Assembly: GCA_023954195.1 (NCBI GenBank)
Contig: JAMLIK010000001.1
Coordinates: 1,600,628 to 1,664,627 of the forward strand
Length of the DNA stretch: 64,000 nt
From: Xanthobacteraceae bacterium
GTDB taxonomy: Bacteria; Pseudomonadota; Alphaproteobacteria; Rhizobiales; Xanthobacteraceae
Direction: 5' to 3'
Positions 2,610 to 26,605 of this stretch are shown piece by piece. Numbering within the stretch: the first letter of the stretch is position 1; each line of letters begins with the position of its first letter. A program made the translations under genes and the position numbers. The notes beneath the pieces were generated by a model. It made no database searches and was not told the DNA's origin. It was given only the letters and a program-made list of their open reading frames with translations.

Positions 2610-3131
2610 CTAAAAATCTCGCGCCAGCGTCGCCAGCATCTCCAGAAGCGCGGCGCGGTTGGCGGGGCCGAGCACCTCGTTGAGGCGCGCCTCGTGCCTG
2701 GTCGCCACCAGCTTCTTGGCGCGGGCCAGAATCGTGCGGCCCTTGTCGGTCAGCATCAGGATGTGCGAGCGGCGGTCGTTGGCGGAGCGGACGCGGACGC
2801 ACAATTCGCGCCCCTCCAGACCGTCGAGCATGGCGACGAAATTCGGCCGCAGGATGCCGAGCGTGCTGGCGATCTCGGTCTGGTTGCGGCCGGGGTTGCG
2901 GTCGATCAGGAGCAGCACCGAGAATTGCGCCGGCGTCAGGTTCAGCGAGGTCATGCAGCGGATGAAGTCATCGAAAACCCGAAGCTGCGCGCGCTTGAGC
3001 GAATAGCCGAGCAGCTCCGACAGTTCGCCCATCCTGATCCCGCCGGCCTCGGCCTCCGGCGCATCGGCCGGCTCGCGCGCCGCCCTGGCCGGCTTCGAGA
3101 CGTTCGGGTCGGCCGTTCTCGACACGGTCAT
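2610..3131 (-). CDS. couR: MarR-family transcriptional repressor, CouR-like
   Basis: This is a winged-helix MarR regulator. The core runs from LSELLGYSLKRAQLRVFDDF through an HTH (NQTEIASTLGILRPNFVAML) to the beta-wing with VRSANDRRSHILMLT, and is of usual MarR length. I chose the ATG at 3131 because GGAG sits six bases upstream; longer starts at 3176 (ATG) and 3185 (GTG) are possible. The gene diverges from a Liv-type ABC operon, and a 17-base palindrome lies in the gap. The neighbourhood matches R. palustris couR, whose product represses p-coumarate genes and is released by p-coumaroyl-CoA. The family is certain; the CouR assignment rests on gene order. Confidence 0.8.
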   Translation of the reverse strand: MTVSRTADPNVSKPARAAREPADAPEAEAGGIRMGELSELLGYSLKRAQLRVFDDFIRCMTSLNLTPAQFSVLLLIDRNPGRNQTEIASTLGILRPNFVAMLDGLEGRELCVRVRSANDRRSHILMLTDKGRTILARAKKLVATRHEARLNEVLGPANRAALLEMLATLARDF

Positions 3132-3189: not shown

Positions 3190-3206
3190 GATTATATTCG
3201 ATAATC
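3190..3206. promoter_or_regulatory. Palindromic operator candidate in the MarR/ABC divergent promoter
   Basis: GATTATATTCGATAATC is a palindrome of two six-base arms around five bases. It sits about 60 bases before the MarR start and 100 before the permease start. Sixteen of 17 bases recur at 15757-15773, and its TTAT-N5-ATAA core recurs at 11744-11758. A binding site for the adjacent MarR protein is the simplest reading. Confidence 0.65.
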
Positions 3207-3305
3207 GTTATTGGTCATATCAAATAGTCACGGCAGATTTCAACTGCCGCCGCGGTTGCCGACGGACGCCAGTCACGGCCACGCGACGCTGGAGGGGGGC
3301 CGGCC

Positions 3306-4346
3306 TTGAACACCACGATCCTGCTGTTCCTGATTCAGGACGGCATCACCAACGGCGCGGTCTACGCGCTGCTCGGGCTGGCGATGGTGCTGGTCTTCGC
3401 GGTCACGCGCGTCATCCTGATCCCGCAAGGCGAATTCGTGGCGTATGGCGCCCTGACCTACGCCACGCTGGCCGCCGGCCAAACCCCCGGCACGGCGATG
3501 CTCGCGATGATTATGGGGCTGGTCGCCTTCTGCTTCGATCTGTTCGCGGCGCGCAAGGCGTTCCGTCCCAAGGCGATCCTGCGCGCCGCCGCCGTCGATA
3601 TCGCGTTTCCGGCGATCGTGCTGGCGCTGACCTGGGGACTCGCCGGGCGCGCCAACGCCATCCCCGTCAACATCGCGCTGTCGCTGTTGATCGTCGCCGC
3701 CATCGGCCTGTTCCTCTACCGCATCGCGTTCCAGCCGATCGCCCATACCTCGGTGCTGGTGCTGCTGATCGCTTCCGTCGGCGCCCATCTCGCGCTGGAA
3801 GGTTTCGGCCTGATCTTCTTCGGCGCCGAGGGCCTGCGCGGCCCGGCGATCTCTGACGCCATGATCTCCATCGGTCAGTTGCAGATCACCGGTCAGAGCC
3901 TCGCGGTCTACGGCATCACCCTGGCGTTGATCGTGGCGCTGTGGCTGTTTTTCGACTTCACGCTGTACGGCAAGGCGCTGCGGGCGACCGCGGTGAACCG
4001 GTTGGGCGCGCGGCTGGTCGGCATCCGCACCTCGTTGTCGGGGCAGATGGCGTTCCTGCTGGCCTCGGTGATCGGCGCGATCTCCGGCATCCTGATCGTG
4101 CCGATCACCACGCTCTATTACGACACCGGCTTCATCGTCGGCCTGAAAGGTTTTGTCGCGGCGATCATCGGGGGGCTCATCAGCTATCCGATCACCGCCG
4201 CCGCCGCCATCGTGGTCGGCCTGGTCGAGGCGTTCTCGTCGTTCTACGCCAGCAATTACAAGGAGGTCATCGTCTTCACGCTGATCATTCCGGTCCTCGT
4301 GCTGCGCTCGCTCGCCGCTCCCGAGGTCGAGGAAGAAAAGGAGTGA
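3306..4346 (+). CDS. Liv-type ABC transporter permease (LivH-like, cou locus)
   Basis: This is a 346-residue inner-membrane permease of the branched-chain amino acid/aromatic acid ABC class, with about eight hydrophobic segments. The start is like LivH (QDGITNGAVYALLGLAMVL), and the EAA-like loop KALRATAVNRLGARLVGI lies near residues 220-240. It begins with TTG behind a GGAGGGG stretch. It belongs to an operon with the permease-ATPase fusion (six-base gap) and a LivF ATPase; the binding protein is encoded convergently at 6943-8097. By synteny this is one of the R. palustris couSTU-type genes for p-coumarate and related lignin acids. Substrate is inferred from the locus, not from the protein. 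Confidence 0.88.
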   Translation: MNTTILLFLIQDGITNGAVYALLGLAMVLVFAVTRVILIPQGEFVAYGALTYATLAAGQTPGTAMLAMIMGLVAFCFDLFAARKAFRPKAILRAAAVDIAFPAIVLALTWGLAGRANAIPVNIALSLLIVAAIGLFLYRIAFQPIAHTSVLVLLIASVGAHLALEGFGLIFFGAEGLRGPAISDAMISIGQLQITGQSLAVYGITLALIVALWLFFDFTLYGKALRATAVNRLGARLVGIRTSLSGQMAFLLASVIGAISGILIVPITTLYYDTGFIVGLKGFVAAIIGGLISYPITAAAAIVVGLVEAFSSFYASNYKEVIVFTLIIPVLVLRSLAAPEVEEEKE

Positions 4347-4351
4347 CGCCG

Positions 4352-6118
4352 ATGACGCAACGTTGGCCGATCGTTGTTTTCGCGCTGGCGATGGCGGCGC
4401 TGCCGCTGATCCCCGACCTTCCGCCGTTCTGGATCGTGCTGCTCAACAATATCGGCCTCGCCGCGCTGGTGGCGATGGGGCTGGTGCTACTGACCGGCGT
4501 CGGCGGCCTCACCTCGTTCGGGCAGGCGGCGTTCTGCGGCTTCGGCGCCTACACCACGGCGGTGCTCACCACCGCCTACGGCGTGTCGCCGTGGCTGACG
4601 CTGCCGCTGGCGCTGATCGTCAGCGGGCTTGCCGCCGTAGCCCTCGGCCTCATCACCGTGCGCCTGTCCGGCCACTACCTGCCGCTCGGCACGCTGGCCT
4701 GGAGTCTGGGGCTCTACTACCTGTTCGGCAAGATGGAGCTGGTCGGCCGCAACGACGGCATCTCGGCGATCCCGCCGTTGTCGATCGGCTCGTGGCGGAT
4801 GCTCGACGCCGGCGCGATCTACTACGTGATCTGGATCGCCGTGATCCTGTCGGCGGTGCTCACCACCAACCTGCTGGACTCGCGCACCGGGCGCGGCATC
4901 CGCGCGCTGCGGCGCGGCCACATCGCCGCCGAGGCCTTCGGCGTCAACACCGCGCGCGCCAAGATGCTGGTGTTCATTTACGCCGCGGTGCTCGCCGGGC
5001 TGTCCGGCTGGCTCTATGCGCACTTCCTGCGCGCGGTGACGCCGACGCCGTTCGGCGTCCATGCCTCGATCGAATACCTGTTCATCGCCGTGGTCGGCGG
5101 CGCCGGCTACATCTGGGGCGGCGTGCTCGGCGCATTGATCGTCATCGTGCTCAAGGAGATCCTGCAAAGCTACCTGCCGCTGATCTTCGGCGGACAGGGC
5201 CAGCTTGAACTGATCGTGTTCGGCCTGGTGCTGGTGGCGCTGGTGCATCTCGCGCCCAACGGCGCGTGGCCGTGGCTGACCGGCCTCTTGCCGTTCAAGC
5301 GCCGCCCGCCCCGCATTGACACGACGCTGCCGCTCGCCGGCCGCCCGGCGGCCGAACCGCCGCCGGTGCTGCTGCAACTCGACGGCGCGCGCAAGCAGTT
5401 CGGCGGCGTGCTCGCCGTCAACGACGTCTCCTTCGCCGTCGGGCCGAAGGAGATCGTGGCGCTGATCGGGCCGAACGGCGCCGGCAAGAGCACCACCTTC
5501 AACCTCATCACCCGCGTGCTCGACGCCAGCGCCGGCCGCATCACCGTGTGCGGCGCCGATATCGCCAGCGCGACGCCGCAGGAGATCGCCCGGCGCGGCG
5601 TCGCCCGCACCTTCCAGCACGTCAAGCTGATCCCCGACATGAGCGTGCTGGAGAACGTCGCGCTCGGCGCCCATCTGCGCGGCCGCGCCGGCACCGTCGC
5701 CAGCATGTTGCGGCTCGACCGCGCCGACGAAGCCCGGCTGCTGGCGGAAGCCGCGCGGCAGATCGCCCGCGTCGGCCTCACCGATCAGATCGATCAGCCG
5801 GCCGGCAGCCTGTCGCTCGGCCAGCAGCGCATCGTCGAGATCGCCCGCGCGCTGTGCGTCGATCCGGTGCTGCTGCTGTTGGACGAGCCGGCGGCGGGCC
5901 TACGCCACATGGAGAAGCAACAGCTCGCCGCGCTGCTGCGGCAATTGCGCGACGGCGGCATGTCGATCCTCCTGGTGGAACACGATATGGGATTCGTCAT
6001 GGACCTCGCCGACCGCATCGTGGTGCTCGACTTCGGCACCAAGATCGCCGAAGGCACCCCCGAGGCGATCAGAACCAATCCGGACGTGATCCGCGCCTAC
6101 CTCGGAGCCGCCGCATGA
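4352..6118 (+). CDS. Fused ABC permease-ATPase (LivM-LivG fusion)
   Basis: A single 588-residue chain joins a LivM-type permease (about residues 1-310, many hydrophobic helices, with VRLSGHYLPLGTLAWSLGLYY) to a LivG-type ATPase (about 345-588). The ATPase has Walker A GPNGAGKS at residues 373-380, the signature LSLGQQ and Walker B LLLLDEPAAG. AAGGAG lies eight bases before the ATG. The gene ends in an ATGA overlap with the next ATPase gene, implying coupled translation. Such fusions occur in this bacterial group and fix a 1:1 ratio of one permease to one ATPase. It works with the neighbouring permease, LivF and binding protein in uptake of an aromatic or branched acid. Confidence 0.92.
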   Translation: MTQRWPIVVFALAMAALPLIPDLPPFWIVLLNNIGLAALVAMGLVLLTGVGGLTSFGQAAFCGFGAYTTAVLTTAYGVSPWLTLPLALIVSGLAAVALGLITVRLSGHYLPLGTLAWSLGLYYLFGKMELVGRNDGISAIPPLSIGSWRMLDAGAIYYVIWIAVILSAVLTTNLLDSRTGRGIRALRRGHIAAEAFGVNTARAKMLVFIYAAVLAGLSGWLYAHFLRAVTPTPFGVHASIEYLFIAVVGGAGYIWGGVLGALIVIVLKEILQSYLPLIFGGQGQLELIVFGLVLVALVHLAPNGAWPWLTGLLPFKRRPPRIDTTLPLAGRPAAEPPPVLLQLDGARKQFGGVLAVNDVSFAVGPKEIVALIGPNGAGKSTTFNLITRVLDASAGRITVCGADIASATPQEIARRGVARTFQHVKLIPDMSVLENVALGAHLRGRAGTVASMLRLDRADEARLLAEAARQIARVGLTDQIDQPAGSLSLGQQRIVEIARALCVDPVLLLLDEPAAGLRHMEKQQLAALLRQLRDGGMSILLVEHDMGFVMDLADRIVVLDFGTKIAEGTPEAIRTNPDVIRAYLGAAA

Positions 6119-6846
6119 CCGCCCCCCTGCTCTCGGTATCCGGCGCCTCGATCGCCTACGGCAAGGTGGAGGCGGTGCGCGCGGTGTCGCTCGATGTCGG
6201 CCACAACGAGATCGTCACCATCGTCGGCGCCAACGGCGCCGGCAAGACCACCCTGCTCAACGCCATCATGGGGATCCTGCCGCAGAGCGGCCGCATCCGC
6301 CTCAACGGCGTCGACATCACCGGCATCGAGATCGAGGACCGCGTCGCGGCCGGCCTGTCGCTGGTGCCGGAGCATCGCGAATTGTTCGGCACCATGAGCG
6401 TCGAGGACAATCTGCAACTCGGCGCGTTCCGCAACGCCAGGGCCGCCGCGCAATCGTTCGAACGGGTCTATGCGCTGTTTCCGCGCCTCAAGGAACGGCG
6501 GCAGCAGCTTGCCGGCACGCTGTCCGGCGGCGAGCAGCAGATGCTGGCGATGGGTCGCGCGCTGATGGGCGAGCCGCGCCTGTTGATGCTGGACGAGCCG
6601 AGCCTCGGCCTCGCGCCCCTGATCGTCGCCGACATCTTCAAGACCGTGGGCGAGTTGCGCGCCGCCGGCGTCTCGGTGCTGCTGGTCGAGCAGAACGCCA
6701 AGGCGGCATTGCAGATCGCCGACCGCGCTTATGTGATGGAGCTGGGCCACTTCATCCTCGACGGCGCGGCCGATACGGTGGCCGCCGATCCGCGCGTGGT
6801 CGCCAGCTATCTCGGCTTCCAGAACGACGCGGCGGCGCGCGTCTGA
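6115..6846 (+). CDS. ABC transporter ATP-binding protein (LivF-like)
   Basis: This 243-residue cytoplasmic ATPase is the second nucleotide-binding subunit of the ABC system. It has Walker A GANGAGKTT near residue 38, the LivF-typical VPEHRELFGTMSVEDNL, the signature LSGGEQQMLAMGRAL, and Walker B LLMLDEPSLGLAP. The length is normal for LivF. The start ATG overlaps the stop codon of the fusion gene (ATGA), so the start choice is firm. The gene closes the ABC operon. A hairpin at 6887-6915 separates it from the convergent binding-protein gene. Confidence 0.92.
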   Translation: MTAPLLSVSGASIAYGKVEAVRAVSLDVGHNEIVTIVGANGAGKTTLLNAIMGILPQSGRIRLNGVDITGIEIEDRVAAGLSLVPEHRELFGTMSVEDNLQLGAFRNARAAAQSFERVYALFPRLKERRQQLAGTLSGGEQQMLAMGRALMGEPRLLMLDEPSLGLAPLIVADIFKTVGELRAAGVSVLLVEQNAKAALQIADRAYVMELGHFILDGAADTVAADPRVVASYLGFQNDAAARV

Positions 6847-6886
6847 CGCCACCGTCGCCAGCGGGATTTCTGCCCGAAGCCAAAGC

Positions 6887-6915
6887 GTCATCGCCGGGCT
6901 TGACCCGGCGATGAC
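6887..6915. terminator. Bidirectional hairpin between convergent ABC genes
   Basis: A perfect 12-base stem GTCATCGCCGGG / CCCGGCGATGAC with a five-base loop sits between the stop codons of the LivF gene and the binding-protein gene. It lacks a good T-tract, so it may be a repeat element acting as a transcript-end stabiliser as much as a terminator. Confidence 0.5.
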
Positions 6916-6942
6916 CGGCTTTGTTTGGCTTCACAGCCGCGA

Positions 6943-8097
6943 TTACTTCACCTGAACGTATTTGCCGTCCTTCACCGTCAGCAGGATGCGCGAGCGGTCG
7001 TCGAGGCCGAAGCGGTCCTTCTCGGTGAAGTTGTAGACGCCCTGGCTCGCGGCGATATCGCGCTCGGTCAACAGCGCCTTGCGGATCGCGTCGCGAAATT
7101 CCGGCGTGCCGGGCTTGGCCGACTTCAGCGCCACCGGCACCACCCGCTCCAGCACCTTGAAGGCGTCGAACGAATGCGCGGCGAACTGGCTGCGGCTGTG
7201 GGGACCGTGCTTGGCCTCATAGGCGGTATTGAGTTCGAGGCCCGGCTTCTTGGTCAGCGCGCTGTCGGCCTGCCCTTCCGGGTCCATCACCGGGCCGGAC
7301 GCCATCAGCACGCCCTCGGCGGCCTTGCCGGCGATGCGGATGAAATCCATGCTGGCGGCGCCGTGGGTCTGATAGATCAGCCCCTTGTAGCCGCGGTCGC
7401 GCAGCGTCGATTGCGGCAACGCCGCCGCGGTGCCCGAGGCGCCGATCAGGATGGCGTCGGGATTGGCGGCGACCAGTTTCAGCACCTGTCCGGTGACCGA
7501 GGTGTCGGGCCGCGCGAAGCGTTCCTCGTCGACGATCTTGATGCCCATCGGCACCGCCTGATTCTTGAGGTCGTTGAACCAGAGGTCGCCGTAGGAATCC
7601 GAATAGCCGATATAGCCGACGGTCTTCACGTTGTGCTTCTTCATGTGATCGTAGAGCACCTTGCCCATGATCGGAATCGGCTGCGGCATCGACACCGACC
7701 ACTTGGCGCGTTCCGGCGTGATCGGGAACGGCGCCAGGCCGAAATGCGGCACGGCGGCCTCGTTGGCGACCGTCGACATCGCGATGGTGGGCGGCGTGGT
7801 CGAGGAGCCCATGATGACGTCGGCCTTGGATTCCGTCACGAAGCGGCGGGCGTTGTTGGTCGCGGCGGTCGGGTCGCCGCCGTCGTCGAGCACGATCACC
7901 TTGAGCGGCACGCCGCCGATCGCCTTCGGCACGAACTCCAGCGCGTTGCGCTCGGGAATGCCGAGCGCCGCCGCCGGCCCCGTGGTGGTGACCGAGATGC
8001 CGATAACGATTTCGTTGCTTTGCGCCTGCGCCGGAGCGATCAGGCCCGGCAGCGCCATCGCCGCGGCGGCGGCCGCGGTCAGCGTGAATTTCCTCAT
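6943..8097 (-). CDS. couP: ABC transporter substrate-binding protein, CouP-like
   Basis: This 384-residue periplasmic protein of the Leu/Ile/Val-binding family begins with a clear Sec signal (MRKFTLTAAAAAAMALPGLI, probable cleavage after AQA near residue 25). The mature start NEIVIGISVTTTGPAAALGI is typical of aromatic-acid binding members. It is the last gene of a leftward run after the hydratase, ligase and SDR genes, and is convergent with its presumed permease and ATPase genes. By gene order it corresponds to CouP, the lignin-monomer binding protein of R. palustris. A 123-base gap separates it from the SDR gene and may hold its own promoter. Confidence 0.85.
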   Translation of the reverse strand: MRKFTLTAAAAAAMALPGLIAPAQAQSNEIVIGISVTTTGPAAALGIPERNALEFVPKAIGGVPLKVIVLDDGGDPTAATNNARRFVTESKADVIMGSSTTPPTIAMSTVANEAAVPHFGLAPFPITPERAKWSVSMPQPIPIMGKVLYDHMKKHNVKTVGYIGYSDSYGDLWFNDLKNQAVPMGIKIVDEERFARPDTSVTGQVLKLVAANPDAILIGASGTAAALPQSTLRDRGYKGLIYQTHGAASMDFIRIAGKAAEGVLMASGPVMDPEGQADSALTKKPGLELNTAYEAKHGPHSRSQFAAHSFDAFKVLERVVPVALKSAKPGTPEFRDAIRKALLTERDIAASQGVYNFTEKDRFGLDDRSRILLTVKDGKYVQVK

Positions 8098-8220
8098 TGG
8101 TTCCTCCCTGAAGATGATTTTCGTTGCAGTCTAGTCCAGCGATTGGCCGGTTCAGCCCCTTCTTTAGACGGGGCTGTCGCCGAAGTCAGCCCCGCGCGCG
8201 CCACGCGGAGACGATGCCGC

Positions 8221-8982
8221 CTATTTCGGCGCCATGCGCAGCGAGGCGTCGAGCCGCACCACCTCGCCGTTGAGGTAGGGATTGTCGATCATGTGCAACG
8301 CCAGCGCGGCGTATTCGTCCGGCGCGCCGAGCCGGTGCGGGAACGGGATCGCGGCGGCGAGGCTGTCCTGCGCCTCCTGCGGCAGCGCGCCGAGCAGCGG
8401 CGTCAGGAACAGGCCGGGCGCGATGGTCAGCACGCGGATGCCGAACTGCGCCAGCTCCCGCGCGATCGGCAGCGTCATGCCGACGATGCCGCCCTTCGAG
8501 GCCGAATAGGCTGCCTGCCCGATCTGGCCGTCATAGGCCGCGACGGAAGCGGTGTTGACGATGACGCCGCGCTCGCCGCCGTCCAGCGGCGCGAGCTTCG
8601 CCATCTCCGCGGCCGCCAGCCGCAGCATGTTGAACGAGCCGATCAGGTTGATACGGATCACGCGGTCGAAATCCGAAAGGCCGTGCGGCCCCTCGCGGCC
8701 GACGACGCGCTTGGCGACGCCGATGCCGGCGCAGTTGACCAGCACGCGGGCCGGGCCGTGCGCCTTGGCGGCGGCGACGACGGCGGCCTCGCCCGAGGCG
8801 GCGTCGGACACGTCGCAATGCACCGCGACGCCGCCGATTTCCCTGGCCAGTTCTTCCGCGAGCTTGGTGTTGAGATCGGCGACCGCGACCTTGGCGCCCT
8901 GCGCCGCCAGTTTGCGCGCGGTGGCCGCGCCCAACCCCGATGCGCCGCCGGTGACGATGGCGGCCTGACCTTGCAACTTCAT
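8221..8982 (-). CDS. SDR-family 3-hydroxyacyl-CoA dehydrogenase-like protein
   Basis: A 253-residue short-chain dehydrogenase with NAD-binding TGGASGLGAATARKL near residue 10, NCAG near 90, and the catalytic Tyr-Lys pair in AYSASKGG. The pattern matches type II 3-hydroxyacyl-CoA dehydrogenases. The start was set at the ATG preceded by AGGAGG five bases upstream; the open frame extends further upstream without support. It lies just downstream of the CoA ligase gene in the same direction. Its role could be oxidation of the 3-hydroxy intermediate made by the hydratase. A close paralogue is encoded at 25844-26605. Confidence 0.88.
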   Translation of the reverse strand: MKLQGQAAIVTGGASGLGAATARKLAAQGAKVAVADLNTKLAEELAREIGGVAVHCDVSDAASGEAAVVAAAKAHGPARVLVNCAGIGVAKRVVGREGPHGLSDFDRVIRINLIGSFNMLRLAAAEMAKLAPLDGGERGVIVNTASVAAYDGQIGQAAYSASKGGIVGMTLPIARELAQFGIRVLTIAPGLFLTPLLGALPQEAQDSLAAAIPFPHRLGAPDEYAALALHMIDNPYLNGEVVRLDASLRMAPK

Positions 8983-9020
8983 GACGTCCTCCTGTGAACC
9001 GTGATGTAAGCGCCGCGCAT

Positions 9021-10892
9021 TTACGCGACGACAATGACGTGAGCGGGCGGCGGCGATGCGTAAAGATCCTCGATCCATGCAACGCGATGCTCGATCACCG
9101 CGCGCTGGTTGATCGAGCCCTTGTCGGTGACCTCGCCGCGATCGATCGACAGCGGCGAGTCGATCAGCATGGCGCGCGTGACGCGGTTGGACGAGCCGGT
9201 GGCGGCGGCCGCGAACGTCGCGAGCCGCTCGCGGAACGCTTGCCGCACCTGCGGATCATGGGCCGCGGCGGCGAGATCGTCGGCCGGCAGCGCCGGATTG
9301 ACGACGCGGCAGCCGTCGAGATCGAGGATCACCAGCGCCGACAGTTCGTCGCGGTTGATGCCGGCGATCACCACGTCGCGCACCAGCGGCGCGCAGGCGG
9401 CGATCAGGCGCGCGCGCAGCGGGCCGACGCTGACCCAGGTGCCGCTGGCGAGCTTGAAATCCTCCGAGATGCGGCCGTCGAAATCGAAGCCGGCATCGAC
9501 ATCGGCGGGATCGGCGAAGCGCAGCGCGTCGCCTAGGATATAGAAGCCTTCGTCGTCGAACGCCTTCGCCGTCAATTCCGGCTGCCGCCAGTAGCCCGGC
9601 GTGACGTTCGGCCCCTTCGCGCGCACCTCGATCTTGCCGTTGTTGGGAAGGAGCTTGGCGTCGTTGCCCGGCACCGGCAGGCCGACATGGCCGGAGCGGC
9701 TCGTCTCCGGCGTCACCGACATGAAGAACGGCGCGGTCTCGGTGGCCCCGAGCCCGGTCAGCATCGGCACCCGCTTGCCGGTCACCTGCACCGCGATCTC
9801 GTCGAGGCTGTTCCAGACATAAGGCGACAGCGCCGCGCCCGAGAAGAACATCGCGTGCAGCCGGCCGAAGAATTTTTCACGTAAAGCGCCGTCCTCGCGC
9901 AGATAGGGCAGCAGCGATTCATAGCCCTTCGGCACGTTGAAATAGACGGTGGGCGAAATCTCGCGCAGGTTGCGCACCGTCTCGGCGATGCCGGCGGGCG
10001 TCGGCTTGCCCTCGTCGAGATACATCGAACCGCCGTTGAACAGCGTCAACCCGATATTGTGATTGCCGCCAAAAGTGTGATTCCACGGCAGCCAGTCGAC
10101 GATCACCGGCGGCTCGTCCTTGAGGAAGGCGAGGGTGTCGCGCAGCATCACCTGATTGGCGCAGATCATCCGCTGGGTATTGATGACCGCCTTCGGATTG
10201 CCGGTCGAACCCGAGGTCAGCAGGAATTTCGCGATGGTATCGGAGCCGATGGCGTCATGCACGGCGTCGAGGCGCGGATGCTCCGGCGTCGCCAGCAACT
10301 CAGCGAATGGCGTGACGACGCGGCCGGGGAGTGCGCCGCGCGCCGCGACGATTTCCGCGTCCGCCGGCGCGGTGGCGGCAAGCGCGGCGGCGAACGGCGT
10401 GGCGTCGGCGGCGAACACCAGCCCCGGCGTCAGCAGCTTCATCACGAAGGACAGCTTGCCGAAATCCTGCGACAGCAGCGAATAGGCCGGCGACACCGGA
10501 CAGAACGGCACGCCGGCAACGAGCGCGCCGAACGCCAGCAGCGCGTGATCGATCGCATTGCCGGACAGGATCACCACCGGCCGCTCCGCCGACAGCCCGC
10601 GCCCGATCAGGGCGGAGGCGACACGCCGGCTCAGGTCGAGCAACTGCGCATAGGTAACGGTGCGCCAGCCGCCGTCGGCCGCGCGCTCCGCCATGAAGAC
10701 GCGATCGGGCGCATGCTTCACCCAGTGATGCAGACGATCGGTCAGGCGGCGCGGATAATCGCCCAGCGCGGCGGTGGGGCGGACGTAGATGGTGCTGTCG
10801 CCGCGACGTTCGATGCGCACTTTGGGCCGGCCGAACGAAATCGGCCGCAGCGGCGCGTCTGTCGGGATATTGGAAGCTGCCATCGTCGGCAT
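9021..10892 (-). CDS. couB: Feruloyl/p-coumaroyl-CoA synthetase, CouB-like
   Basis: This 623-residue AMP-forming acyl-CoA ligase belongs to the feruloyl-CoA synthase group: long N-terminal extension, the block ILSGNAIDHALLAFGAL, the P-loop TSGSTGNPKAVINTQ near residue 225, and the adenylate motif region GFYILGDALRF near residue 445. It activates hydroxycinnamic acids with ATP and CoA in the cytosol. A GGAG ribosome site lies nine bases before the first ATG (10892); an ATG at 10883 is an alternative. It follows the hydratase gene by 19 bases, so they share a transcript. The substrate is inferred from the locus. A paralogue lies at 22921-24819. Confidence 0.85.
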   Translation of the reverse strand: MPTMAASNIPTDAPLRPISFGRPKVRIERRGDSTIYVRPTAALGDYPRRLTDRLHHWVKHAPDRVFMAERAADGGWRTVTYAQLLDLSRRVASALIGRGLSAERPVVILSGNAIDHALLAFGALVAGVPFCPVSPAYSLLSQDFGKLSFVMKLLTPGLVFAADATPFAAALAATAPADAEIVAARGALPGRVVTPFAELLATPEHPRLDAVHDAIGSDTIAKFLLTSGSTGNPKAVINTQRMICANQVMLRDTLAFLKDEPPVIVDWLPWNHTFGGNHNIGLTLFNGGSMYLDEGKPTPAGIAETVRNLREISPTVYFNVPKGYESLLPYLREDGALREKFFGRLHAMFFSGAALSPYVWNSLDEIAVQVTGKRVPMLTGLGATETAPFFMSVTPETSRSGHVGLPVPGNDAKLLPNNGKIEVRAKGPNVTPGYWRQPELTAKAFDDEGFYILGDALRFADPADVDAGFDFDGRISEDFKLASGTWVSVGPLRARLIAACAPLVRDVVIAGINRDELSALVILDLDGCRVVNPALPADDLAAAAHDPQVRQAFRERLATFAAAATGSSNRVTRAMLIDSPLSIDRGEVTDKGSINQRAVIEHRVAWIEDLYASPPPAHVIVVA

Positions 10893-10911
10893 CCGGCCGC
10901 GCTCCTCTGCC

Positions 10912-11718
10912 TCAGGTCGGGCGAACCTTCGCGGTCTTGCGGTCGAGGAACGCCCGGATCCGGTTCTTGGCTTCCTGATCGCTCTGCGCCACCGTCGCCA
11001 TCAGCGATTCCATCAGCAGGCCGGTCTGCGGATTGGCCTCGGCGATCATCGGCAGCGCCTGCAACACCGCGAAATTTGTCAGCGGCGCGTTTTCCGCCAC
11101 CCGCTTGCCCAGCTCCATCGCCCTGGCGTAAGCGCCGCCAGCCTCGGTGAGATACTGCGAAAACCCGCAGGCGACGCCCTCGGTGGCGGAATAGACCCGG
11201 CCGGTCAGCATCATGTCGGCCATCCGCGCCACGCCGATCAGGCGCGGCAGCCGCACCGAGCCGCCGCCGCCGACGAAGATGCCGCGGCTGCCTTCCGGCA
11301 AGGCGTAATAGGTGCTGGCGTCGGCGACGCGGATGTGCGCCGCGCAGGCCAGTTCAAGGCCGCCGCCGATCACCGCGCCGCGCAGCGCGGCGATCACCGG
11401 CACGCGGCAATACTGGATCTTGTCAAACACCCGGTGCCACATCTGGGAATGAACGAGACCGCCGGTGGCGTCGCGCTCGGTCAGTTCCGAAAGGTCGAGG
11501 CCGGCGGAAAAATGCTCGCCGACGCCGTGCAGCACCACCGCCCCGACGCCATCCGGCAGATGCGAGAAACAGCGCTGGATCTCCGCCATGATGTCGTCGT
11601 TCAGCGCATTGCGCTTGGCCGGACGATTGAGCCCGACGCTCAGCACCGCCCCGACCTGCTCGACGGCCAGCAACGACCACGGGGCGGTCGCGGAAGCGGA
11701 GGTGGAGGCGTTTCCCAT
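10912..11718 (-). CDS. couA: Enoyl-CoA hydratase/lyase (crotonase fold), CouA-like
   Basis: A 268-residue crotonase. Both catalytic glutamates of hydratases are present, 20 residues apart: Glu122 in GGGLELA and Glu142 in ALPEGS, and the oxyanion-hole region HFSAGLDLSEL is intact. In the R. palustris p-coumarate route CouA hydrates p-coumaroyl-CoA and cleaves it to 4-hydroxybenzaldehyde and acetyl-CoA. It is the first gene of a leftward run (hydratase, ligase, SDR, binding protein). A palindrome lies 26 bases upstream of its start. Family and active site are seen; substrate is by synteny. Confidence 0.85.
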   Translation of the reverse strand: MGNASTSASATAPWSLLAVEQVGAVLSVGLNRPAKRNALNDDIMAEIQRCFSHLPDGVGAVVLHGVGEHFSAGLDLSELTERDATGGLVHSQMWHRVFDKIQYCRVPVIAALRGAVIGGGLELACAAHIRVADASTYYALPEGSRGIFVGGGGSVRLPRLIGVARMADMMLTGRVYSATEGVACGFSQYLTEAGGAYARAMELGKRVAENAPLTNFAVLQALPMIAEANPQTGLLMESLMATVAQSDQEAKNRIRAFLDRKTAKVRPT

Positions 11719-11743
11719 GGGTTATTATGTCCTTGATGGAATA

Positions 11744-11758
11744 GTTATGTTTTATAAC
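11744..11758. promoter_or_regulatory. Palindromic operator candidate upstream of the hydratase gene
   Basis: GTTATGTTTTATAAC is a perfect five-plus-five palindrome just before the hydratase start. Its 13-base core fits TTATRTTYNATAA, also found at 3192-3204 and 15759-15771. That suggests the same MarR repressor controls this operon. Confidence 0.55.
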
Positions 11759-11848
11759 AGATCGGGCAGGAGTCAACCTGATCCGGTGTCACGCCGCCCA
11801 TCTTCAATAACGCTTTCAAAAACAGCCCGATTCAGCTGTCATCTCGAC

Positions 11849-11981
11849 CGTGTCCCGGACGCGATGCAGCGTGGAACGCTGCTTCGCAGAACCGGGAGCG
11901 TCGCAAAACACCGTGGCTGGAACGGCCCCGGTTCTGCGCAGCGTCACTTCGTGCCGCAGCGCGCACGGGGCACGAGGCCAT
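11849..11981. repeat. Dispersed repeat, family D, copy 1
   Basis: A GC-rich imperfect palindrome with the arms CTTCGCAGAACCGGG and CCCGGTTCTGCGCAG around a variable centre. A diverged copy lies at 16281-16401. It fills most of the gap between the hydratase and DUF3237 genes, and separates two leftward transcription units. Confidence 0.6.
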
Positions 11982-12006
11982 TTCCAACAATATGCCGGAG
12001 GTGAGC

Positions 12007-12468
12007 CTATAATACCTGATGCACGTCGATGACGACGCGGTCGGCGTGGCGCGCGGCGGAGCCGACGAACAGGTGCCGCATCAGCCAGCGGTATTTCTCG
12101 CTGCCGGTCTCGAACCGCGGCGTGGTGCGGAAATAGATCAGCGCGGGGTCGACCGGCTCGTTGCGCTTCAGCTTCTCCAGCAATTCCCTCGGCCCGAACC
12201 GGATGCCGGTGTTGACGACATAGACCACCGCGCCGTCGTCGGTCTCGAAGGCATACTTGGCTTCGAGATCGATCAATTCGTCCGGCCGGATGATCTGGAA
12301 GTCGGCGCCGAACGGCAGCACCCGGCCGTTGACGTCCTCGCCGCGCACCTCGCCGCCGACGATCGGAATGATGCGCCGGACGCCGTGCCCGATATCGCCG
12401 GCCGAGGTGACGGCGGCGATCTGCGCGGTGATGGTGAAGACGTATTTCGTCGCGAGAACAGGAGCCAT
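12007..12468 (-). CDS. DUF3237 domain protein
   Basis: This 153-residue protein spans one DUF3237 (UPF0311) domain, a small beta-barrel of unknown function. Typical features are the block GVRRIIPIVGGEVRGEDVNG near residue 30, GADFQIIRPD, and the C-terminal RYRWLMRHLFVGSAAR-type run ending FVGSAARHADRVVIDVHQV. No signal peptide is visible. It starts four bases after the TRAP large permease gene ends, so it is cotranscribed with the transporter. DUF3237 genes often sit in aromatic catabolism clusters, but no activity can be assigned here. Confidence 0.85.
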   Translation of the reverse strand: MAPVLATKYVFTITAQIAAVTSAGDIGHGVRRIIPIVGGEVRGEDVNGRVLPFGADFQIIRPDELIDLEAKYAFETDDGAVVYVVNTGIRFGPRELLEKLKRNEPVDPALIYFRTTPRFETGSEKYRWLMRHLFVGSAARHADRVVIDVHQVL

Positions 12469-12472
12469 CGGT

Positions 12473-13777
12473 CTATCCTATCATGTGCATCGGCAGCCAG
12501 GTTGCGATCACCGGGAAGGCGATCAGCAGCACCAGCCGCACCAGGTCGGTGGCCACGAACGGCAGCACGCCGGCGAAGATCGTCGACATGCTGACGTCCT
12601 TGATGACGCTCTTGATGACGAACACGTTCATGCCGACCGGCGGGTGGATCAACCCGAGTTCGACCGTCATCACGATGATGATGCCGAACCAGATCGGATC
12701 GAAGCCCAGTTCGGTGATGACCGGGAACACGATCGGCACCGTCAGGATAATCATCGCCATCGCGTCCATCAGGCAGCCCAGCACCAGATACATCATCAGG
12801 ATCAGCGCCAGCACGCCGTAGCGGCCGATGCCGAGGCCGGTGAGAAACTCGGTGACGTGCTGCGGCGTCTGGGTGATGGTCAGGAAATAGCCGAAGCACA
12901 ACGCGCCGATCAGCACGGTGAACACCGCCGCCGTGGTGCGCGTCGCCTGCAACAGCGCTTCGAGAATGCCGGCGCGCGACAGCTTGCGGCGCAGGACGCC
13001 GATGACGAAGGCGCCGACCGCGCCGACCGCGCCGGCCTCGGTCGGAATGAAGAAGCCGCCGTAAAGCCCCCCGATGACGAAGAAGAACAGCGCCAACGGC
13101 GACCACACGTCGCGCAGCGCCAGCATGCGGTCGTGCCAGCTTGAGCGCGGGCCGGCGGGCAGGAAGCCCGGCCGCGCCGCGCCGATGATGGCGATGGTAA
13201 TCATGTGCATGGTGATCGCCATCAGCCCCGGCACGATGCCGGCGACAAACAGCTTGCCGATATCCTGTTGCGTGATGATGCCGTAGACCACCAGCACGGT
13301 GGACGGCGGCAGCATCGCGCCCAGCGTGCCGCCGACGGCGATGACGCCGGTGGAGAACGACTGCGGATAGCCGAAGCGGCGCATTTCCGGATAGGCCACC
13401 GCGGAGAACGTCGCGGCGGTCGCGACCGACGAACCCGAGATCGCCGCGAAGCCGCCGCAGGCGCCGATGGTGGCGATGCCGAGGCCGCCTTTCCAGTGCC
13501 CGACGAAGGTGTTGGCGGCGCGGAACAGTTCGCGGCTGATGCCGGACACCGAGACGAAGGCGCCCATCAGCAGGAACATCGGGATCACGCCGAACGAATA
13601 ATCGGTGACGGTGCGCATCACCGTCTGCGCCACCAGCTTCAGCGCCGGCTCCATGCCGGTGAGGTAGCCGAAGCCGGTGACGCCGACGAGGCCCATGGCC
13701 ATGCCGACCGGGACCCGCAACAGCATCATCACGAACAGGCTGACGAAGCCGATGACGGCGACGGTCTCGTTGCTCAT
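12473..13777 (-). CDS. tarM: TRAP transporter large permease (DctM/TarM-like)
   Basis: This is a 434-residue inner-membrane protein with about 12 hydrophobic segments, the DctM subunit that forms the ion-coupled translocation path of a TRAP transporter. Family marks include GATGACGGFAAISGSSVATAA-type glycine-rich helix (here ATIGACGGFAAISGSSVATA) and GGTLGAMLPPSTVLVVYGI. It lies six bases after the small permease gene and four bases before DUF3237. By synteny it is TarM of the R. palustris system that takes up p-coumarate and related acids together with TarP and TarQ. Confidence 0.9.
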   Translation of the reverse strand: MSNETVAVIGFVSLFVMMLLRVPVGMAMGLVGVTGFGYLTGMEPALKLVAQTVMRTVTDYSFGVIPMFLLMGAFVSVSGISRELFRAANTFVGHWKGGLGIATIGACGGFAAISGSSVATAATFSAVAYPEMRRFGYPQSFSTGVIAVGGTLGAMLPPSTVLVVYGIITQQDIGKLFVAGIVPGLMAITMHMITIAIIGAARPGFLPAGPRSSWHDRMLALRDVWSPLALFFFVIGGLYGGFFIPTEAGAVGAVGAFVIGVLRRKLSRAGILEALLQATRTTAAVFTVLIGALCFGYFLTITQTPQHVTEFLTGLGIGRYGVLALILMMYLVLGCLMDAMAMIILTVPIVFPVITELGFDPIWFGIIIVMTVELGLIHPPVGMNVFVIKSVIKDVSMSTIFAGVLPFVATDLVRLVLLIAFPVIATWLPMHMIG

Positions 13778-13783
13778 CGCCGC

Positions 13784-14347
13784 TTACTCCGCCGTCTTGA
13801 TTTTGGGTTCGTGCAACTGTTCCGGATGGAAAACCAGACGCCAGGTGCGGATCGCGATCAACAGCACGGCGGAGACGTCGCCGACCCACGCCACCGCGTA
13901 GAACGGCCAGATCGGCAGTTGCAGATCCATCGTCAGCACATGATCCTCGCGGGTGGTGATGACCTTGTCGAGCAGGGTGTAGGTCTGCACCGTCACCACG
14001 AACAGCAGCACCAGCGTCGCGAATACGTCGATCCAGCGCTGATATTTCGGCGAGGCGTTGGCCCAGACCAGATCGACGGTGATGTGGGTGCCGCGATAGC
14101 TGGTGGCGGCGATGCCCCAGAAGATCAGGATGCCGAGCAGGAACTGGCCGATATTGTAGTAATCGGGAATCGTCACCGAAAAGAACTTCCGCATGAACAC
14201 CGCGACGAAGGTGTTCAGCGCGACGATGCCGACGAAGAACGCCGCCACCCATTCGATCGAGTCGATGAACTTGTCCATATAGTTCTTGGGCGGCGCCATC
14301 GATGGCCGCAACGCGCCGTCAGGGGCGACTTCGGGATCAGCGGGCAT
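13784..14347 (-). CDS. tarQ: TRAP transporter small permease (DctQ/TarQ-like)
   Basis: A 187-residue DctQ-type membrane subunit with four hydrophobic helices. The segment WVAAFFVGIVALNTFVAVFM is helix 1, and GILIFWGIAATSYRGTHITV carries the conserved W-x-x-A-x-x-x-R region. It partners the large permease encoded immediately downstream and the periplasmic protein encoded upstream. A family A repeat lies between this gene and the binding-protein gene, which could help keep the binding protein more abundant than the permeases. Confidence 0.88.
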   Translation of the reverse strand: MPADPEVAPDGALRPSMAPPKNYMDKFIDSIEWVAAFFVGIVALNTFVAVFMRKFFSVTIPDYYNIGQFLLGILIFWGIAATSYRGTHITVDLVWANASPKYQRWIDVFATLVLLFVVTVQTYTLLDKVITTREDHVLTMDLQLPIWPFYAVAWVGDVSAVLLIAIRTWRLVFHPEQLHEPKIKTAE

Positions 14348-14390
14348 GGATACGTCTCACGTCATCGCGGGGGGTCTCAACAACATCGGC

Positions 14391-14508
14391 GTCGTCCCCG
14401 CGCAGGCGGGGACCCATAACCCCTGACTTCGATTGTCATAGATGGCGTCGCCTCAGGTGAGGAGCCGAACCGCTGCGGCGTATGGGTCCCCGCCTGCGCG
14501 GGGACGAC
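14391..14508. repeat. Dispersed hairpin repeat, family A, copy 2
   Basis: Arms CGTCCCCGCGCAGGCGGGGA and its exact reverse complement bound this 118-base element between the TRAP binding-protein gene and the small permease gene. Placed inside the transcription unit, it could act as a 3' stability or attenuation element. Confidence 0.8.
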
Positions 14509-14575
14509 GATTTTCGTATTGAAAATCTGACCACGAAACGAATTTCCGGTCAGCCATGCAAACGAGGCCGGCTTG

Positions 14576-15610
14576 TCACAGCCCCGCGTTGAATTTCTTG
14601 ATCGCGGCCTGGAGATCGGCGTCGATCGTGGCCGGATCGCCGCCGGCCTTCTTGACGTCGGCCGCCCAGCTGTCATGCAGCGGCTTCACGGCGGCCTTCC
14701 ACTTCGCGAGCTGATCCGGGGTCAACTGATAGACCTCGTGATCGGGCAAAGCCTTCATCCGGGCGCGGCCGTTGAACTCGAACTCGCTCCACGGATCGGT
14801 GACCTTGGAGGCCCACTCCGGCGTGCAGTGATCGTCGATGACCTTCTTCTGCGCCGGCGACAGCGCGTTGTAGCTCTTGAGATTCATGTTGTAGGTGAAC
14901 ACCGTGGTGTAGAGCGGCGCGTCCATCGCGTATTTGACCGCCTTCTCGATGCCGAACAGGAACATCGAGCCCCACGGGAAGGTGATGGCGTCGGCGACGC
15001 CGCGCTCGATGGCGTCGCGCGCCTCGGGCGCCGAAGCCTGGACGTTGGTGCCGCCGTACATCTTGACCAGTTCGCCGATGGTCGATTGCGCCGGGCGCAC
15101 CTTCATGCCCTTGAGATCCTCCGGCACCACAACCTTCTTCTTGCCGAACAGCGCGCCGGGATCGTGAATGAAGGCGAAGCACAGCTTGGTGTCCTTCATC
15201 TCGGTCGGCGCGTATTTGTGATACCATTCGTTCAGCGCCAGCGTGCCCTTCTTGCCGTCGCCGAACACGAACGGAATCTGCCCCGCCGCCGCGATCGGGA
15301 AGCGCCCCGGCTGGTAACCCGGATTGACGTAAGTGATGTCGGCGATGCCGTCGCGCGCCATGTCGTAGTGGTCGAACGCCTTGCCGAGCTGCTGCGAGGG
15401 GAACACGGTCAGCCTGATGGTGCCGCCCGACGCCTTCTCGATGTCCTTCGCCCAGGCGATGGTCGCCGGCACCAGGGGATGAGCGGGAGGCACCCACAGC
15501 GAGACCTTCAGGTTCACGGTCTTGTCCTGCGCCATCGCCGGCGTCGTTACAGGCGTCATGGCGGCGGTCGCGCAGCCGGCCATCAGCAGCGCCAGAAGTG
15601 CTTTCCTCAT
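14576..15610 (-). CDS. tarP: TRAP transporter substrate-binding protein (DctP/TarP-like)
   Basis: A 344-residue periplasmic DctP-family protein with an N-terminal signal (MRKALLALLMAGCATAAMTP, cleavage probably after AMA/Q near residue 27). The mature domain has the family segments LKVSLWVPPAHPLVPATIAW and the helix-hinge block MKVRPAQSTIGELVKMYGGT, whose Arg normally binds the ligand carboxylate. It is the first gene of the leftward TRAP unit. It resembles TarP of R. palustris by position, a high-affinity protein for p-coumarate-like acids. A 17-base palindrome shared with the MarR promoter lies 147 bases upstream. Confidence 0.87.
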   Translation of the reverse strand: MRKALLALLMAGCATAAMTPVTTPAMAQDKTVNLKVSLWVPPAHPLVPATIAWAKDIEKASGGTIRLTVFPSQQLGKAFDHYDMARDGIADITYVNPGYQPGRFPIAAAGQIPFVFGDGKKGTLALNEWYHKYAPTEMKDTKLCFAFIHDPGALFGKKKVVVPEDLKGMKVRPAQSTIGELVKMYGGTNVQASAPEARDAIERGVADAITFPWGSMFLFGIEKAVKYAMDAPLYTTVFTYNMNLKSYNALSPAQKKVIDDHCTPEWASKVTDPWSEFEFNGRARMKALPDHEVYQLTPDQLAKWKAAVKPLHDSWAADVKKAGGDPATIDADLQAAIKKFNAGL

Positions 15611-15961
15611 CGTCGTCTCTCCCTCGCCTGGAGGCCGGTTTTCCCGCCGCCAACTTTATTTAACATGTTATCCGACATCGCCCGCGATGCAAGCCGCGAT
15701 ACAGGCGAAGTGTGTCCTGTCCAGGCCCGCGCCGCAACGGCCGCGGTCGGTGAATTGATTATATTCAATAATCATCTGCGTGGAAGGGTTGGCCGCGCCG
15801 GTTCACATGAAATTCCGGCGGCCAGACCGGGCACATGATCTCCCCTTGAACGGGATCGCCGCAAACAGGCGTTGCTTCGCGCCTGTTGACCCGGCCATTC
15901 CTCCCTTTCTAAAAGATGGCGGCGCGGATTTTGCCGGTCGCGAGCAGAGAGATTCAGGACA
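15611..15961. other. 351-base intergenic region with the TRAP promoter
   Basis: This region between the divergent TRAP binding-protein and YkgJ-like genes has no convincing gene. It holds the perfect 10-base palindrome TAACATGTTA at 15661-15670, in the only AT-rich stretch near the TRAP gene, and the MarR-type palindrome at 15757-15773. Both fit a regulated leftward promoter. Nothing clear was seen on the YkgJ side. Confidence 0.5.
15757..15773. promoter_or_regulatory. Palindromic operator candidate upstream of the TRAP operon
   Basis: GATTATATTCAATAATC differs at one base from the palindrome at 3190-3206, and here the symmetry extends one base pair further on each side (T...A). A 17-base near-identity between two promoters 12.5 kb apart, both of transporters for the same class of acid, supports a shared regulator. 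Confidence 0.65.
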
Positions 15962-25843: not shown

Positions 25844-26605
25844 TTATCGCGGCGCCATGCGGATGGCGCCGTCGAGGCGGATGGTTTCGCCGTTGAGCAT
25901 CGGGTTCTCGACGATATGCACCGCCAGCGCGCCGTATTCGTCGGCCGCGCCGAGCCGCGCCGGATGCGGCACCTGCGCGCCGAGGCTCTTGCGGGCTTCC
26001 TCGGACAGGCCCATCAGCAGCGGCGTCAGGAACAGGCCGGGCGCGATGGTGTTGACGCGAATCCGGTGCTGGGCGAGGTCGCGCGCCGCCGGCAGCGTCA
26101 GGCCGACCACGCCGCCCTTCGAGGCGGAATAGGCGATCTGGCCGATCTGGCCCTCGTAGGCGGCGACCGAGGCGGTGTTGATGATGACGCCGCGTTCCTC
26201 GCCGTCCGGCGGGGTCGGCACCAGGCGGCCGGCGAACAGCCGCAGCACGTTGAAGGTGCCGATCAGGTTGACGTTGATGATCCGCGCGAACCGCTCCAGC
26301 GGATAGATCGAGCCGTCCTTGCTGACGATCCGCAGCGAGCCGCCGATGCCGGCGCAGTTCACCAGCACGCGGGCGACGCCGTGCGCGGCTTCCGCCTTGT
26401 CGATGCCCGCCTGGATCTGCTCCTCGCTGGTGACGTCGGCATGGATCGCGACGCCCTTGACCTCGGACGCGACCTTCTCGGCGTTGTCCTTGTTCTGGTC
26501 GATCACCGCGACCCTGGCGCCCTTGGCCGCCATGGCGCGCGCGGTCGCGGCGCCCAGGCCCGAGCCGCCGCCGGTGATGAGAACGGCCACATCCTTCAAC
26601 TGCAT
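25844..26605 (-). CDS. SDR-family 3-hydroxyacyl-CoA dehydrogenase-like protein
   Basis: This 253-residue SDR is a close paralogue of the protein at 8221-8982: LITGGGSGLGAATARAMAAK for NAD binding, NCAGIGGSLR near residue 90, and the catalytic AYSASKGGVVGLTLPAARDL. In the cluster it would oxidise the 3-hydroxyacyl-CoA made by the crotonase, ahead of thiolysis by the divergently encoded thiolase. It directly follows the TetR gene by 45 bases, in the same direction, so regulator and pathway genes may share a transcript. Confidence 0.88.
   Translation of the reverse strand: MQLKDVAVLITGGGSGLGAATARAMAAKGARVAVIDQNKDNAEKVASEVKGVAIHADVTSEEQIQAGIDKAEAAHGVARVLVNCAGIGGSLRIVSKDGSIYPLERFARIINVNLIGTFNVLRLFAGRLVPTPPDGEERGVIINTASVAAYEGQIGQIAYSASKGGVVGLTLPAARDLAQHRIRVNTIAPGLFLTPLLMGLSEEARKSLGAQVPHPARLGAADEYGALAVHIVENPMLNGETIRLDGAIRMAPR

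Follow-up and report, generated by a model that had tools for sequence, protein, structure and literature searches.

Do the similar palindromes at the promoters of one uptake and degradation locus answer to a single regulator, and does the reach of that regulator end at the locus? The question is raised by a stretch of 64,000 nucleotides from a Xanthobacteraceae bacterium (assembly GCA_023954195.1, contig JAMLIK010000001.1, positions 1,600,628 to 1,664,627), which is referred to here as the window and numbered from its first letter. The locus is of the type known from Rhodopseudomonas palustris as the couR/CouPSTU/couAB/TarPQM cluster, in which a gene for the MarR-family protein CouR accompanies genes for an ATP-binding cassette (ABC) transporter, a tripartite ATP-independent periplasmic (TRAP) transporter and enzymes of hydroxycinnamate degradation. 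A sequence-only reading of this DNA had proposed that one palindrome at three promoters defines a MarR regulon over both uptake systems. We consider it very probable that the palindromes serve a CouR-type MarR repressor as operators over these three units, and that a fourth palindrome puts an unlinked amidohydrolase, most likely a beta-ketoacyl-coenzyme A (CoA) hydrolase, under the same control.

Three promoters and the CouR protein

The motif consists of inverted half-sites separated by 5 bp and reads GATTAT-N5-ATAATC at two of the sites and GTTAT-N5-ATAAC at the couA site (Table 1). The two 17-mers and the core before couA were read directly and lie exactly where the sequence-only reading had placed them. 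The gene map bears out their placement at promoters, as the sites are upstream of the divergent couR and livH genes, of the hydratase-ligase operon and of tarP. Operator 1 overlaps a promoter-like match directed toward couR at its -10-like TATAAT (ATGACC-16-TATAAT, minus strand 3218–3191), an overlap that is as expected if CouR were to repress its own gene.

Judged by its sequence, the MarR protein of the window is a CouR orthologue. It matches PDB 6c28, a structure named CouR, with an E-value of 2.6e-73 and 127 identical residues among 171 aligned (74%); we take this structure to be the R. palustris CouR protein. It is 66–76% identical to the CouR proteins of eight named Rhodopseudomonas loci. 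The DNA-binding stretch is invariant at 34 of 44 positions across 53 relatives (L047 is left out, its anchor was not found). The setting also matches that of R. palustris-type CouR, with couR divergent from the ABC operon and accompanied by couAB and tarPQM.

Conservation was counted in the 80 best couA loci among 269 relatives found, 1.40 Mb in total. The counts omit loci in which the gene match was missing or started past residue 45, and those whose upstream DNA fell short of 100 bp. The core TTAT-N5-ATAA is present in 54/54 couR-livH intergenic regions, in 78/80 couA upstream regions (77 by scan, and L087, where the site overlaps a start placed too early by the match) and in 43/59 tarP upstream regions. 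At couA the two misses (L051 and L056) concern a second copy of the gene, the genome in each case having a full cluster as well (L048 and L054). A one-mismatch variant is found in 15 of the 16 tarP misses, the exception being R. pseudopalustris L023. All 175 core matches in the 80 loci sit at the three promoters, and the core occurs in none of 518 regions upstream of eight other cluster genes; these control regions are for the most part coding and GC-rich. CouR orthology and the retention of the core at three promoters in dozens of relatives support the proposed MarR regulon.

The sequence-only reading had also held that such matches are unlikely by chance in a GC-rich genome and had suggested a genome scan for the 13-mer, TTATRTTYNATAA. 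In the 64 kb window the 13-mer is found at only three places when up to one mismatch is allowed, and it has no matches in 100 shuffles. Its exact form has three copies in the genome (4,179,586 bases, 4.18 Mb, in 7 contigs), all of them at the present locus. To this extent the claim stands; with one mismatch there are 8 matches genome-wide, equal to the 8 of a reversed control (6+2 against 1+7). The bare core occurs at 8 places in the genome and its reversed control at 12, and four further core places have no evident link to the pathway. Rarity alone is therefore weak evidence for the core, because neither the mismatch count nor the bare-core count exceeds that of the reversed controls, and the case is carried by position and conservation.

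These genome-wide counts are what would be seen if the matches arose by chance, or if they were no more than the AT-rich sequence usual in promoters, without a shared regulator. We regard this explanation as extremely improbable, since all three exact 13-mers stand at three promoters of one pathway and relatives keep the core at those promoters with no others in the 1.40 Mb. Further points count against the operator reading. Close relatives are not independent, and shared descent inflates the conservation counts; the composition of the control regions, given above, detracts from their value as controls. A search of the couA, tarP and amidohydrolase regions for a sigma-70-like promoter found none.

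A fourth site, at an unlinked amidohydrolase gene

The three-promoter scope of the regulon holds for the promoters it names and looks incomplete. A fourth palindrome is present outside the window at G000:C2:92908–92924 (core C2:92910–92922), it reads TTGATTAT-GAGAT-ATAACCAA on the strand of the gene that follows. This 17-bp site ends 42 bp 5' of the start of an amidohydrolase gene (site and gene together G000:C2:91996–92924, equivalent to L139 3497–4425). Among orthologues of the amidohydrolase the core is found upstream in 20 of 30 loci, where it ends 26 to 58 bp before the match-placed start. This count omits three of the 33 close copies (G133, G094 and G167); G167, which matches R. pseudopalustris DSM 123, has the palindrome before the gene. 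The palindrome is likewise present in 5/5 genomes of genus g29, three of which match named Rhodopseudomonas loci at 100%. In the Rhodopseudomonas genome G136 the pattern DTTATN5ATAAH has only three matches genome-wide, before couA, tarP and the amidohydrolase, and the couR-livH site of this genome departs from the pattern only at an outer base that the pattern excludes.

The amidohydrolase also co-occurs with CouR. At an identity of at least 84% it is present in 33 of the 149 genomes sampled, all 33 have CouR (E-value 1e-40 or better), and 33 of the 35 genomes with CouR carry it. Ten more distant homologues (59–79% identity) are found in genomes with no CouR match at 1e-40. Two observations weigh against CouR control of this gene: the ten loci that lack the palindrome, all in three genera (g6, g27 and g67), and the origin of the 33 co-occurrences, which stem from related genomes and are not 33 independent events. 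Within g67, G123 does have the palindrome.

The sites could be real operators of another regulator, for example a second MarR protein or, at the amidohydrolase, an upstream regulator present in some relatives. In three loci (L220, L225 and L226) a regulator-like gene in the same direction stops some 100 bp short of the amidohydrolase, and the palindrome is missing from two of these loci; in G005 a MarR-like gene, identified by eye only, adjoins the amidohydrolase. Against this stand the palindrome beside couR in every relative counted, which is the usual mark of self-regulation, the restriction of the close amidohydrolase to CouR genomes in the sample, and the placement of the only three pattern matches in G136. 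We find control by a regulator other than CouR unlikely. The regulator-like gene of L220, L225 and L226 extends between about 870 and 100 bp upstream of the amidohydrolase; by eye only, it looks IclR-like.

The amidohydrolase belongs to the Pfam family Amidohydro_2 (5.3e-58), and a search against NCBIfam named no family for it. A homologue in Rhizobium sp. Q54 is 73% identical and is annotated as 4-hydroxyphenyl-beta-ketoacyl-CoA hydrolase; its gene adjoins genes for feruloyl-CoA synthase, a hydratase, a dehydrogenase, a MarR protein and a TRAP transporter. The Paracoccus aestuarii homologue sits in a hydroxycinnamate cluster. The cluster around the Terrarubrum flagellatum homologue is of the cou type, it contains couP, liv genes and a MarR gene, and a core palindrome starts 43 bp before the match-placed amidohydrolase start. 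Of 15 more distant loci (58–81% identity), 8 have a homologue of couA or couB no more than 6 kb away. The other seven, some of them on short contigs, lack such a neighbour, which speaks against a role in this pathway. By annotation, a plasmid copy in Rhizobium leguminosarum has no hydroxycinnamate neighbour, and one on a Rhodococcus opacus plasmid adjoins another AMP-binding gene and a short-chain dehydrogenase/reductase (SDR) gene. Because of the palindrome, the co-occurrence with CouR, the homologues in hydroxycinnamate clusters and the Rhizobium annotation, we suggest that the amidohydrolase probably completes a beta-oxidative side-chain route and that the CouR regulon probably includes this last step.

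Other candidate targets were considered. A one-mismatch pair near an ABC ATPase gene (L006 and L007) was set aside, as were the remaining matches of the own genome, since their context could not be linked to the pathway. A gene for a TRAP binding protein with a twin-arginine translocation (Tat) signal was rejected as a CouR target, the core being upstream in 5 of 29 loci (3 of the 29 are paralogues; L325 was too short and is left out) and the conserved element there being a different one, ATATTATGGAATAT. This palindromic element lies 5' of the Tat-signal DctP gene in L317, L318, L319, L321, L322, L323, L327, L328, L330, L332 and L335. Of 21 orthologues of pcaH, a protocatechuate dioxygenase gene, 8 have the core upstream (8 of 24 loci when 3 paralogues are counted in; L293, L294, L295, L297, L300, L302, L304 and L305), and the core is absent upstream of pcaH in the own genome.

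The side-chain route and the genes of the locus

Observed are the sites, the degree to which relatives keep them, and the families of the proteins; we infer binding, repression, the ligand, the extent of the operons and the hydrolase reaction. When no substrate is present, a CouR dimer on TTAT-N5-ATAA would repress the divergent couR and ABC-permease promoters and the couA-couB-SDR-couP and tarPQM operons. On entry of a hydroxycinnamate, CouB would form the CoA thioester, the thioester would release CouR, and the units would be induced together. The fourth operator would bring the amidohydrolase under this control, and the enzyme would most likely act on the beta-ketoacyl-CoA that CouA and the SDR produce, with hydrolysis to 4-hydroxybenzoate and acetyl-CoA. 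The simplest route would use CouB as ligase, CouA as hydratase, the SDR as dehydrogenase and finally the amidohydrolase, all controlled by CouR.

R. palustris is described as using a non-beta-oxidation route (PMC3610893), which tells against such a scheme. CouR may then control the three units as in R. palustris, with the route passing through an aldehyde and the amidohydrolase doing something else. In keeping with this, the SDR gene follows couB in 0 of 8 named Rhodopseudomonas loci with the region covered (L030 is uncovered), and in the five g29 genomes the best SDR matches elsewhere are 61–62% identical. In the window genome, by contrast, the SDR gene is directly 3' of couB, and it adjoins couB in 64 of 75 relatives with the region covered. 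The amidohydrolase has an operator-like palindrome and is linked elsewhere to ligase and hydratase genes, sometimes with an SDR gene, and no hydroxycinnamoyl-CoA hydratase-lyase is named among the best 60 of 201 solved relatives of CouA. We consider an exclusively aldehyde route rather doubtful. In Rhodopseudomonas both routes may run, or another SDR may supply the dehydrogenase step. On balance we lean towards a Bradyrhizobium-Rhodopseudomonas CouR regulon that holds an unlinked CouO-like hydrolase, joined by protocatechuate dioxygenase genes in some lineages, with a route that is wholly or partly beta-oxidative deacetylation and not only the aldehyde route.

The genes of the locus are listed in Table 1. 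The ABC operon of the sequence-only reading is right for the permease genes, which lie behind the couR-livH site; couP is separate from them. This gene is on the minus strand, 3' of couA-couB-SDR, therefore the couA promoter probably drives it, under the control of the couA site; it is not transcribed with the permease genes. The LivM half of the LivM-LivG fusion was named from its position and from an annotated permease/ATPase fusion in the Terrarubrum cluster. For CouB the top NCBIfam acyl-CoA synthetase model is NF009232, at 751 bits against a cut-off of 777. The top NCBIfam matches of the SDR after couB are FabG-like SDR models, and all 25 listed are below cut-off. A second SDR gene is present in the window (25847–26605, minus strand), its product is 61% identical to the SDR after couB.

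Table 1. Genes and putative operators of the cou locus, in window coordinates
Feature	Position	Strand	Basis
couR, MarR-family repressor	2610..3131	-	173 aa from ATG 3131; Pfam MarR 9.3e-14 (on longer reading to 3185)
CouR-type operator 1 (putative), GATTATATTCGATAATC	3190..3206	.	couR-livH intergenic; read directly
LivH-type ABC permease, Cou ABC system	3306..4346	+	Pfam BPD_transp_2 1e-20
LivM-LivG fusion, permease and ATPase, 588 aa	4352..6118	+	open frame; residues 340-586 match LivG model at 2.6e-75, below cut-off
LivF-type ABC ATPase	6115..6846	+	NCBIfam LivF model 5.4e-74, below cut-off
couP, periplasmic binding protein of ABC system	6943..8097	-	Pfam Peripla_BP_6; PDB 3tx6, 4jb0, 3ukj, 3uk0, E < 1e-200
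SDR dehydrogenase, probable 3-hydroxyacyl-CoA dehydrogenase of side-chain pathway	8221..8982	-	38 bp 3' of couB
couB, p-coumarate/ferulate CoA ligase	9021..10892	-	Pfam AMP-binding
couA, enoyl-CoA hydratase	10912..11718	-	Pfam ECH_1; PDB 3hin E 1.7e-137
CouR-type operator 2 (putative), GTTATGTTTTATAAC	11744..11758	.	25 bp 5' of couA start codon; read directly
small conserved protein adjoining tarM	12007..12468	-	NCBIfam NF002045 hypothetical protein, 292 bits, cut-off 246
tarM, TRAP large permease	12473..13777	-	Pfam DctM 5.3e-119
tarQ, TRAP small permease	13784..14347	-	NCBIfam YiaM model 3.2e-6, far below cut-off, and position
tarP, TRAP substrate-binding protein	14576..15610	-	Pfam DctP; PDB 7nqg E 8.9e-187
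CouR-type operator 3 (putative), GATTATATTCAATAATC	15757..15773	.	146 bp 5' of tarP start codon; read directly

Related regulons and significance

The three-promoter CouR regulon is known biology in the relative R. palustris, since CouR is described there as controlling couAB, with the ABC and TRAP genes in the same regulon (PMC3610893). That regulon (RPA1782–1794) shares with the window couR, couAB, the ABC and TRAP gene set and the reported regulation, and differs in the SDR gene after couB, which is absent from all eight covered Rhodopseudomonas loci. The available text of PMC3610893 holds no mention of a fourth operator at an amidohydrolase in its account of the R. palustris regulon. Searches of the open-licence literature brought up no paper that ties an amidohydrolase of this kind to the CouR of R. 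palustris, nor do the available portions of PMC13289028, PMC7997838 and PMC10458429 make this link.

The cou genes of Rhodococcus jostii RHA1 are also under a MarR repressor, CouR, whose operators are inverted repeats with a 5-bp spacer and whose ligand is p-hydroxycinnamoyl-CoA (PMC4737184). The last side-chain step in RHA1 is carried out by CouO, a member of the amidohydrolase superfamily (PMC4737184), the superfamily to which the product of the putative fourth target here also belongs. The systems differ in that RHA1 CouR is about 25% (PMC4737184) or 36% (PMC9594313) identical to R. palustris CouR. The half-site in RHA1 is cATTGA, against GATTAT here, the RHA1 genes form a single linked cluster, and a different ligand mechanism has been suggested (PMC4737184).

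In Agrobacterium fabrum a single MarR repressor, HcaR, controls a ligase, a hydratase, a dehydrogenase and a last enzyme of beta-keto-cleaving type, all encoded in the SpG8-1b region (PMC7797058). These genes are thus not spread over separate places, in contrast to those described here, and beta-keto-thiolase is the name given to the last of the enzymes, Atu1421 (PMC7797058).

CouR, a studied CoA-thioester-sensing repressor in the use of lignin monomers, has also served to build a biosensor (PMC9594313). What is added here is the regulon in this genome, the explicit conservation of its motif, and the fourth operator with its implication for the pathway. Across many species, the conserved set of four operators gives TTAT-N5-ATAA as the likely DNA code of CouR. 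The set also points to one strongly conserved amidohydrolase as the likely last step of side-chain removal, and through this enzyme the question of the route in R. palustris and Bradyrhizobium becomes directly testable.

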